Below, piece by piece: positions 31,799-32,330 of a DNA stretch of 33,147 nt; the stretch's first letter is position 1; every line of letters starts with the position of its first letter. The position numbers were made by a program, and so were the translations under genes. The DNA is taken from the NCBI GenBank assembly GCA_023245855.1, contig JAHFJL010000005.1:1-33147 (forward strand). The letters run 5' to 3'. Source of the stretch: a bacterium (GTDB lineage: Bacteria; Patescibacteriota; Gracilibacteria; Absconditabacterales; Absconditicoccaceae). Under the pieces are notes generated by a model that did no database searches, was not told the DNA's origin, and was given only the letters and a program-made list of their open reading frames with translations.

Positions 31799-31866
31799 TG
31801 GGGAGAATAGGAGTCGAACCTATGTAGCCGTGAGGCGCTCCGATACATCGGAGTGCAATTGACCAC
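31799..31866 (-). pseudogene. Partial tRNA-Tyr-like copy lacking the 5' acceptor strand
   Basis: From GTGGTC (31861-31866) to the 3' acceptor TCTCCCC it equals tRNA-Tyr at 32163-32245, including the variable arm and T-arm. The exception is the anticodon arm, where the 17-base canonical arm is replaced by the 16-base hairpin CTCCGATGTATCGGAG. The 5' acceptor and first D-stem strand are replaced by the 3' flank of the GIY-YIG gene. The hairpin loop UGUA still contains GUA, the Tyr anticodon. A 43-base stretch is identical to the other partial copy at 32274-32330. Confidence 0.75.
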
Positions 31867-31890
31867 ACCCATAGAATAAAGAGAATTATT

Positions 31891-32136
31891 CTATCAACCC
31901 ATAAAGTTTTGTATAAATTTTCTATCTTTTTGTTTTTTGATGTGATACTCATATCTTCTTGCTTCCAGTAATGTTGGATATTCTTTCATATACAATAATT
32001 CAAGTGGTCTTAGATTTTTTGTTGTCAGACTTTTACCTTCTTGATGTTGTTGTATTCTTCTTTCTAAATTGTTTGTGCTTCAAACATAATATCTTCAATT
32101 TTTAAGTTTAAGCACATAAACAAATCATTTCTCCAT
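31891..32136 (-). CDS. GIY-YIG nuclease domain protein, 81 aa
   Basis: Single-domain GIY-YIG protein. The GIY-like strand is FVYVLKLKNGRYYVGSTNNLERRIQQH (split here at residues 5-31), with YYVG as the YIG motif, the catalytic Arg in LERR, then HQEGKSLTTKNLRPLELLYMKEYPTLLEARRYEYHIKK, which holds the usual metal-binding Glu region (EARRYE). Such small proteins (YhbQ-like, also intron homing enzymes) cut DNA. The Gly of YVG is TGA. It lies between the complete tRNA-Tyr and a partial tRNA-Tyr, which suggests involvement in the rearrangement. A hairpin ATAGAATAA/TTATTCTAT follows its stop. Confidence 0.85.
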
Positions 32137-32162
32137 ATTGGCTTAGTTGTAATAATATAACC

Positions 32163-32245
32163 TGGGGAGAATAGGAGTCGAACCTATGTAGCCGTGAGGC
32201 GTCAGATTTACAGTCTGATGCAATTGACCACTCTGCCATCTCCCC
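32163..32245 (-). tRNA. tRNA-Tyr (anticodon GUA)
   Basis: Class II tRNA, 83 nt. Acceptor GGGGAGA pairs with TCTCCCC, discriminator A. Anticodon arm TCAGA-CTGTAAA-TCTGA gives GUA. Variable arm GCC-TCAC-GGC, T-arm ATAGG-TTCGACT-CCTAT. CCA not encoded. It is the only complete Tyr copy here and lies between two partial copies. Confidence 0.93.
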
Positions 32246-32273
32246 ATAAAAATAATAATTTTGTTTGATGACG

Positions 32274-32330
32274 GTAGCCGTGAGGCGCTCCGATACATCG
32301 GAGTGCAATTGACCACTCTGCCATCTCCCC
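32274..32330 (-). pseudogene. Partial tRNA-Tyr-like copy lacking the T-arm and 3' acceptor
   Basis: The minus strand starts with the complete 5' acceptor and D-arm of tRNA-Tyr (GGGGAGATGGCAGAG onward), continues through the same 16-base replacement hairpin CTCCGATGTATCGGAG and the variable arm, and stops matching at GGCTAC. It complements the copy at 31799-31866: together they would give a full tRNA-Tyr with an altered anticodon arm. Confidence 0.75.

Follow-up and report, generated by a model that had tools for sequence, protein, structure and literature searches.

A GIY-YIG nuclease gene set among palindrome-armed tRNA fragments: a putative homing-like element of bacterial tRNA genes

A small GIY-YIG nuclease gene was found beside an intact tRNA-Tyr gene, and among partial copies of that tRNA, in a stretch of 33,147 nucleotides (the window) from a bacterium of the family Absconditicoccaceae. 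Here and at many other loci, as read from sequence, the nuclease gene has 5′ tRNA sequence upstream or 3′ tRNA sequence downstream of it, an arrangement that resembles an interrupted tRNA, and a complete tRNA is kept. We consider it probable (roughly 0.7) that the unit is a selfish, homing-like element which lodges in tRNA genes, leaves one tRNA unharmed and bears a palindrome predicted to be cognate to its nuclease; we infer both its mobility and the cleavage. A homing-type element with its own replacement tRNA had been suggested in the first-pass annotation. Of the readings considered, this one has the strongest support, and the layout is seen in many genomes, but the details given for insertion and duplication did not hold.

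On the minus strand, the order is 5′ Tyr fragment, intact tRNA-Tyr, GIY-YIG gene and 3′ Tyr fragment (Table 1), as had been described from the letters, and it was borne out by ARAGORN, Rfam and a repeat comparison. The 43 bases noted earlier as common to the two partial copies were recovered as an exact repeat (31824-31866 = 32274-32316). All 5 tRNAs found by ARAGORN in the window lie on the minus strand. A group I intron was rejected, the Rfam gathering search of the window giving only the 5 tRNAs. The host genome comprises 1.11 Mb in 70 contigs, and the window's contig is 39.6 kb long; a scaffold gap of 10 Ns comes right after the window end at 33147, approximately 100 nt past the tandem array.

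Table 1. Positions in the window of the parts of the tRNA-Tyr locus and of the neighbouring tRNA-Ala array
Feature	Coordinates	Strand	Basis or composition
3′ pseudo-tRNA-Tyr	31799..31866	(-)	tRNA positions 16-28 + palindrome arm + positions 46-84
Palindrome CTCCGATGTATCGGAG, downstream copy, in anticodon-arm place	31838..31853	(-)	
GIY-YIG nuclease, 81 aa + stop	31891..32136	(-)	code 25 (TGA = Gly)
Intact tRNA-Tyr (GTA)	32162..32246	(-)	ARAGORN; Rfam 63.3 bits
5′ pseudo-tRNA-Tyr	32274..32331	(-)	tRNA positions 1-28 + palindrome arm + positions 46-59
Palindrome CTCCGATGTATCGGAG, upstream copy, in anticodon-arm place	32288..32303	(-)	
Intact tRNA-Ala (TGC), parent of neighbouring array	32430..32506	(-)	ARAGORN
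Tandem array, ~5 units of 104 bp	32507..33041	(-)	repeat comparison; no nuclease gene

The Tyr fragments differ from the intact tRNA solely in the anticodon arm, being identical to it through position 28 and again from position 46. The native 17 nt (TCAGACTGTAAATCTGA) are swapped for a 16-nt palindrome (CTCCGATGTATCGGAG), which has a 6-nt loop if the five-pair stem is kept. Because a palindrome stands in the place of the anticodon arm, the fragments are pieces of a pseudo-tRNA rather than halves of a plausible working tRNA, and the earlier view that they add up to one full variant tRNA had to be abandoned. So did the proposed 43-bp target duplication: the repeat consists of the core that both pseudo-tRNA fragments have in common, and, unlike what a generic target duplication would give, most loci elsewhere have a single fragment, 5′ upstream or 3′ downstream. 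The swapped arm had a calculated folding energy of -7.1 kcal/mol, against -2.6 kcal/mol for the native arm. The pattern TCCGNTNNANCGGA had 5 matches in the window and 0 in 100 shuffles. In the host genome, the pattern TCCGRTNNAYCGGA was present at 7 places, 7/7 of them in pseudo-tRNAs (Tyr, Ala, and Gly), and its reversed control gave no match there.

Under the standard code the nuclease frame is broken by TGA, and with TGA read as Gly it is intact over 81 aa. Code 25 fits, since two of the gene's TGA codons fall on conserved glycines of KNGRYYVGST. A UCA tRNA next to the cluster (C12:33349-33422), labelled SeC by ARAGORN, is presumably a TGA-reading Gly tRNA. Membership in the GIY-YIG superfamily was indicated by 64.6 bits against PF01541 (cut-off 22.6), and a weak match to T5orf172 overlaps this one. 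The catalytic Tyr, Tyr, Arg, His, and Glu are present; these residues, invariant in 33/33 sequences aligned for the tRNA-linked type, we take to be the catalytic residues of the GIY-YIG domain. The AlphaFold model of the protein had a pLDDT of 93, its nearest folds by Foldseek were UPF0213 and SLX1, and the same two were the closest solved proteins in the profile comparison. NCBIfam and PHROGs gave weak homing-endonuclease matches; in the profile searches no HUH enzyme was matched, and GIY-YIG models were. GIY-YIG domains are known as DNA nucleases, and SLX1 is a nuclease acting on branched DNA; the SLX1-like fold of the model suits a cruciform substrate without proving one. At least one copy in the family is interrupted by stops (G008:C3:50229). 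At a locus of Draconibacterium sediminis (L254, 1501-1740), the nuclease is a partial match and looks disrupted, and a pseudo-tRNA-Ala with its palindrome remains, possibly a stage of decay.

Occupied and empty sites were compared by searching relatives with the tRNA-Tyr sequence, which had matches in 101 of 147. Thirty Tyr loci were read, and Tyr fragments were present in 4 (L042 of the host genome, L053, L059, and L065) and absent from the other 26, one of which (L068) is cut by a contig end. Within the same genus, where the order Ala-Tyr-Arg is kept, the gap between the Tyr and Arg tRNAs is 30-107 nt without the nuclease (L046, L053, L054, L055, and L060) and 374-409 nt with it (L059 and L042). 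Four of these loci (L046, L054, L055, and L060) are empty, with 32-107 nt to tRNA-Arg. At tRNA-Tyr, then, the gene interrupts an allele whose related alleles in the same genus are uninterrupted, as in homing, and occupancy is patchy within one genus. A genome of the same genus (G006) has at Tyr the same nuclease, of 62% amino-acid identity, plus the 3′ fragment. An empty site in relatives had been expected and was found, but as an ordinary tRNA-Tyr and not as an uninterrupted form of the variant; none of the 30 Tyr loci held an uninterrupted variant with the palindrome arm, contrary to the idea of insertion into such a variant. Since the empty site is an ordinary tRNA-Tyr, the element did not enter a pre-existing variant tRNA. 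Judged from these alleles, the palindrome arm belongs to the element. The first-pass annotation had also named tRNA-like pieces lacking the nuclease and lying in varied orders as evidence against insertion; pieces lacking the nuclease do exist (an upstream Tyr fragment in G007 and, with no nuclease at Tyr, Tyr fragments in G036), but their order is the same.

The nuclease is widely distributed. A protein search gave matches in 30 of 49 genomes of the family, and 50 loci were read. They adjoin Tyr, Val, Gly, Ile, Leu, Met, Phe, Lys, Cys, His, Trp, Arg, Glu, and Ala tRNAs, and in most cases fragments of the same tRNA are present; about one third, which are weaker homologues, have no tRNA nearby. 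Profile matches, not every one of them tRNA-linked, were obtained in 224/288 genomes of the class (E up to 1e-10) and in 160/332 of the phylum (at 1e-18). Thirteen of the 15 loci returned from outside the family have a tRNA and its pieces, the other two being short contig-end loci, and among the phylum loci, which were the best-scoring ones and not a random draw, 27/28 have an adjoining tRNA. The contig scan used a 7-row subset of the alignment (A2), profile A1 being too divergent. Named genomes were also scanned with one peptide pattern that took no account of tRNAs; of the 58 loci obtained, 39 lie 400 bp or less from a tRNA, and 32 of those 39 have pieces of that tRNA. The 19 without a nearby tRNA are all from Bacteroidota; 18 fall in one clade and the nineteenth was too short for the tree. 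Bacteroidota loci such as L239 and L242-L248 make up a clade of their own, with small GIY-YIG genes that are very much alike and whose fetched flanks contain no tRNA.

Carriers include Patescibacteria, where the gene adjoins tRNAs of nearly all isotypes, Elusimicrobia, WOR-1/Saganbacteria/Margulisiibacteriota, Omnitrophota, Kiritimatiellales, Verrucomicrobiia, and a contig labelled Chloroflexi. The isolates Maribellus sediminis, Draconibacterium mangrovi, and D. sediminis are also carriers, and the same layout is present at cultured isolate loci L219, L226, and L254. In phages, a tblastn search of INPHARED with one family member as query matched 2 records, both from one phage, at 36% identity; a scan of IMG/VR gave 20 loci, the best at 42% and without a tRNA by ARAGORN. 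Cargo of phages or plasmids was therefore rejected, with one weak phage and no plasmid matched. Rfam searches for other RNA genes as targets, made on 13 loci of which some are tRNA-linked, gave tRNAs only.

Three layouts were distinguished: A, 5′ fragment, nuclease and intact tRNA; B, intact tRNA, nuclease and 3′ fragment; and C, both fragments, as at the Tyr locus of the window. After duplicate loci (a list of 22 ids) were dropped, 154 homologues in 148 loci were counted, 114 of them 400 bp or less from a tRNA and 113 of these 114 on its strand. A piece of at least 10 nt of the nuclease's own tRNA was nearby for 103 of the 114. With chains of at least 15 nt, an upstream fragment was present in 58/65 loci where the nuclease precedes the tRNA, and a downstream fragment in 24/26 where the tRNA comes first. 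Upstream chains begin at tRNA position 1 in 56/73 cases, and downstream chains extend to position 72 or past it in 35/55. Same-strand fragments of at least 15 nt were found at 93 of 152 tRNAs near a nuclease versus 7 of 128 away from one; on the opposite strand, such fragments occurred at 1/152 of the tRNAs near a nuclease. In the same genome, the fragment loses the native arm and the intact tRNA keeps it. The nucleases have diverged to 40-50% identity, yet the fragments have stayed nearly the same in sequence as the intact tRNA, a state that requires renewal or gene conversion to be frequent.

The arm swap is a general feature of these loci. Stems of at least 5 pairs were formed by 51 of 56 arm swaps, compared with 8/56 after shuffling, and the modal borders, tRNA positions 27/28 and 45, are in register. 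Among 28 distinct flush replacements, defined solely by their tRNA flanks, the outer pair was C-G, G-C, T-A, or A-T and complementary in 22/28, and an inner CCG/CGG core recurs; in this set, pairing and core sequence of the palindrome both look selected. Stems of at least 7 were present upstream in 56/80 of layout A, compared with 7/40 for nucleases far from tRNAs, and downstream in 20/33 of layout B, compared with 6/40. By the criterion used, no palindrome was found in 36 of the 114 tRNA-adjacent cases.

Palindrome sequence follows the nuclease lineage rather than the tRNA, so far as the sequence classes tell. Over the same 69 rows of the nuclease tree, the palindrome core class changes 8 times and the tRNA isotype 35 times; the tree was built from 90 columns with two short proteins left out, and half of its forks are open. 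Classes were assigned by our own regular expressions and 'none' and 'other' rows were excluded, so that the lineage tests kept 69 rows (tree) and 71 rows (nearest relatives) of the 114 tRNA-adjacent ones. Nearest relatives at a different isotype shared the class in 47/71 cases, with a mean of 20.9 and a maximum of 36 in 2000 shuffles; for this test, two class patterns had been widened after the leftovers were viewed, by which two rows moved. When the Leu class was left out and CCGA was pooled with CCGG, the class was shared in 54/56. In a clade with support 98 (16 rows), the palindromes are of the CCGC type at Lys, Met, Trp, His, Cys, Ala, and Arg tRNAs; the nucleases of a Leu clade come with CCTGCCTGCCGGCAGGCAGG. 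Two Ala elements, L075 with GTCCGGTTTTACCGGAC and L120 with TCCCGCAGAATTGCGGGA, each resemble the relatives of their own nuclease.

Palindromes were also sought away from the elements. The pattern CCCGAANNNNTTCGGG has one copy each in D. mangrovi and M. sediminis, cultured Bacteroidota with genomes of 5.6-5.9 Mb, and by coordinates both are at a pseudo-tRNA-Ala. The same search covered two more genomes: one from Elusimicrobia has no CCCGAANNNNTTCGGG, and in one from Verrucomicrobiia a single copy lies on another contig; in both, the genome's own palindrome differs from the pattern. TCCCGATNNATCGGGA is present in 12 of 49 family genomes. Of its loci read, 5/17 are in pseudo-tRNAs and 12/17 elsewhere, some of them terminator-like; one genome (G036) alone has 18 places, few of which are covered by the tally of 17. 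In G003, two copies of TCCCGATAAATCGGGA (L124 and L134) lie within longer similar sequence, away from any tRNA found, and in G036, TCCCGATCNATCGGGA lies within a second, unrelated dispersed repeat (L127 and L135). The reading of the palindrome as purely a host-wide repeat was rejected; it is partly true for G036, G039, and others, and does not apply to the host genome or the two isolates.

In each unit of the tandem array next to the Tyr locus, part of the tRNA-Ala core is present and GTCCGGTTCACCGGAC stands where its anticodon arm would be; the centre of the palindrome varies in two units. The array is probably a relic or a non-autonomous derivative of the same kind of element. More tRNA fragments were located in the host genome, at C13:28718-28830, C50:4529-4544, the end of C50 (L039), C39:8363-8380, and C60:2282-2303. 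The isotypes of the further fragments are Gly(gcc) twice, Leu(tag), Met-type twice, Arg(tcg), and Leu(gag), and the Leu(tag) fragment has a palindrome in the place of the T-arm. No nuclease gene was seen beside those further loci that were read. The host genome thus has several fragment loci versus one clear tRNA-linked nuclease.

In the mechanism we propose, the palindrome would be the cognate site of the nuclease, either in the form of half-sites in duplex DNA or extruded as a cruciform. A cut there or close by would leave ends flanked by homology to the tRNA gene, and recombination could then copy the element into tRNA alleles without it or duplicate fragments in tandem, the latter resembling the amplification of tRNA-Tyr by the phage nuclease SegB. 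One complete tRNA would always be left after recombination, so that the insertion would be harmless without any splicing, and fragment arrays lacking the nuclease gene would be relics. Some observations weigh against a selfish element. The intact tRNA in the same genome holds all that a site-specific tRNA-gene nuclease would need and yet would have to escape cleavage, many fragments are without a nuclease, and TCCCGATNNATCGGGA palindromes also lie away from tRNAs, as counted above.

Since an intact tRNA with its native arm is in the genome, simple recognition of the native arm would be suicidal. It is tentatively suggested, at somewhat less than even odds, that these are a new class of element, in which GIY-YIG nuclease and palindrome move together by means of tRNA homology arms and the palindrome of the pseudo-tRNA, as a cruciform or hairpin, is cut instead of the tRNA. 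Broken ends would use the flanking tRNA pieces to find the tRNA gene of that isotype, and each event would add a fragment outside the working tRNA, never breaking it.

Several other explanations of the loci were considered. We think it unlikely that the unit is a device kept by the host, either an amplifier of tRNA genes like SegB or a guard against phages or islands that use tRNA attachment sites. The wide spread and the active sites intact in 33/33 would agree with a useful function, and the protection of phage T6 by SegB amplification of tRNA-Tyr, as given in excerpts of the report (PMC13096335), provides a precedent; however, what is amplified here is a dead pseudo-tRNA and no working tRNA, presence is patchy within one genus, and at least one family copy is stop-interrupted.

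Quite improbable, in our judgement, is a palindrome acting as an RNA hairpin in the tRNA-operon transcript, in processing, termination, or translation of the nuclease, with the lineage match reflecting RNA binding. The arm slot and the pairing are kept, the outer pairs varying yet remaining complementary in most flush replacements; the swapped arm is more stably folded than the native arm; and nuclease and tRNA share a strand in all but one case. A single cis-regulatory role is nevertheless hard to reconcile with a palindrome that precedes the gene in layout A and follows it in layout B, GIY-YIG domains are known as DNA nucleases, and the duplicated tRNA pieces would be left unexplained.

The loci might instead be debris of tandem slippage in tRNA clusters that captured common host palindromes, with the GIY-YIG gene as a passenger. 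Fragment arrays without a nuclease (window 32507-33041) or beside one (L078 and L203), and similar palindromes elsewhere in some genomes, would fit this view. This explanation is very improbable, given that fragments are rare at tRNAs without a nuclease, that the palindromes are in register at 27/45 and track the nuclease lineage and not the tRNA, and that the host genome has the pattern nowhere outside pseudo-tRNAs. Finally, a split or trans-joined tRNA-Tyr or a chimeric assembly, for which the complementary extent of the two fragments with their 43 common bases and the scaffold gap might speak, can be dismissed: the joined product would carry a palindrome arm with its 6-nt loop and no standard anticodon loop, a complete tRNA-Tyr adjoins, most loci have one fragment and lack a second half, and the same layout is present in many independent genomes, cultured isolates among them.

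The selfish, homing-like element stays our preferred reading. If true, tRNA genes would have a widespread parasite that has so far gone undescribed; almost every top-scoring nuclease locus examined adjoins a tRNA, and no description of nuclease-palindrome-pseudo-tRNA elements was found in the open-licence PMC literature. An essential RNA gene would be interrupted without splicing and without harm. Nucleases of about 80 residues with naturally matched palindromes would make minimal GIY-YIG recognition directly testable, and the element would account for partial tRNAs and odd tRNA arrays of Patescibacteria otherwise taken as pseudogenes or errors.

Several known systems share single features with the element. 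In REP-RAYT systems, a small enzyme gene lies beside short palindromes matching the enzyme lineage, and the GIY-YIG elements are similar in that their palindromes also track the lineage of the enzyme. RAYTs belong to the HUH tyrosine enzymes, and their palindromes are numerous and dispersed, whereas the enzyme here is a GIY-YIG nuclease and the palindrome pattern was confined to pseudo-tRNAs in three genomes tested. Group I introns with homing genes sit in tRNA anticodon loops and leave the host gene functional; the place in the host gene is the same, but tRNA function is kept here by duplication and not by splicing. Integrases, genomic islands, and tycheposons at tRNA genes leave one restored tRNA and one partial copy; the present unit, in contrast, has no integrase, is approximately 0.5 kb long and holds one nuclease gene, encoding about 80 aa.

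Mobile ORFs of fungal mitochondria, reported in Allomyces atp6 and in Glomus atp6, atp9, cox2, and nad3, are intron-less endonuclease genes that interrupt a host gene and supply a duplicate of the displaced part, according to excerpts of that study (PMC3630166). In the excerpted account they resemble the tRNA elements in that the interrupted gene stays working by duplication; they differ in that the hosts are mitochondrial protein genes and the duplicate is divergent in DNA (PMC3630166), while either end of the tRNA can be duplicated here and the copies are near-identical except for the palindrome arm.

SegB of phages T4 and T6 is the closest tested relative of the elements. It is described in the excerpts as a free-standing GIY-YIG homing endonuclease of the tRNA region, beside tRNAs of many isotypes, that cuts within tRNA genes and leads by homologous recombination to tandem duplication of tRNA and nuclease, the amplification of tRNA-Tyr guarding phage T6 from a tRNA-cutting defence (PMC13096335). 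The excerpts give its cut motif as RAWTSGAAC (PMC13096335); on the other strand this reads like a tRNA T-loop, which is our own reading and not that of the paper. A free-standing GIY-YIG nuclease beside tRNA genes is, on this partial account, common to both. The excerpted text describes no palindrome, arm swap, or fixed 5′/3′ fragment layout (PMC13096335); SegB is a phage gene, and the present elements are chromosomal, found in contigs of bacterial genomes and, so far as the phage searches above tell, not carried by phages. In kind, free-standing homing endonucleases come closest to the element, though they have neither its palindrome partner nor its pseudo-tRNA.
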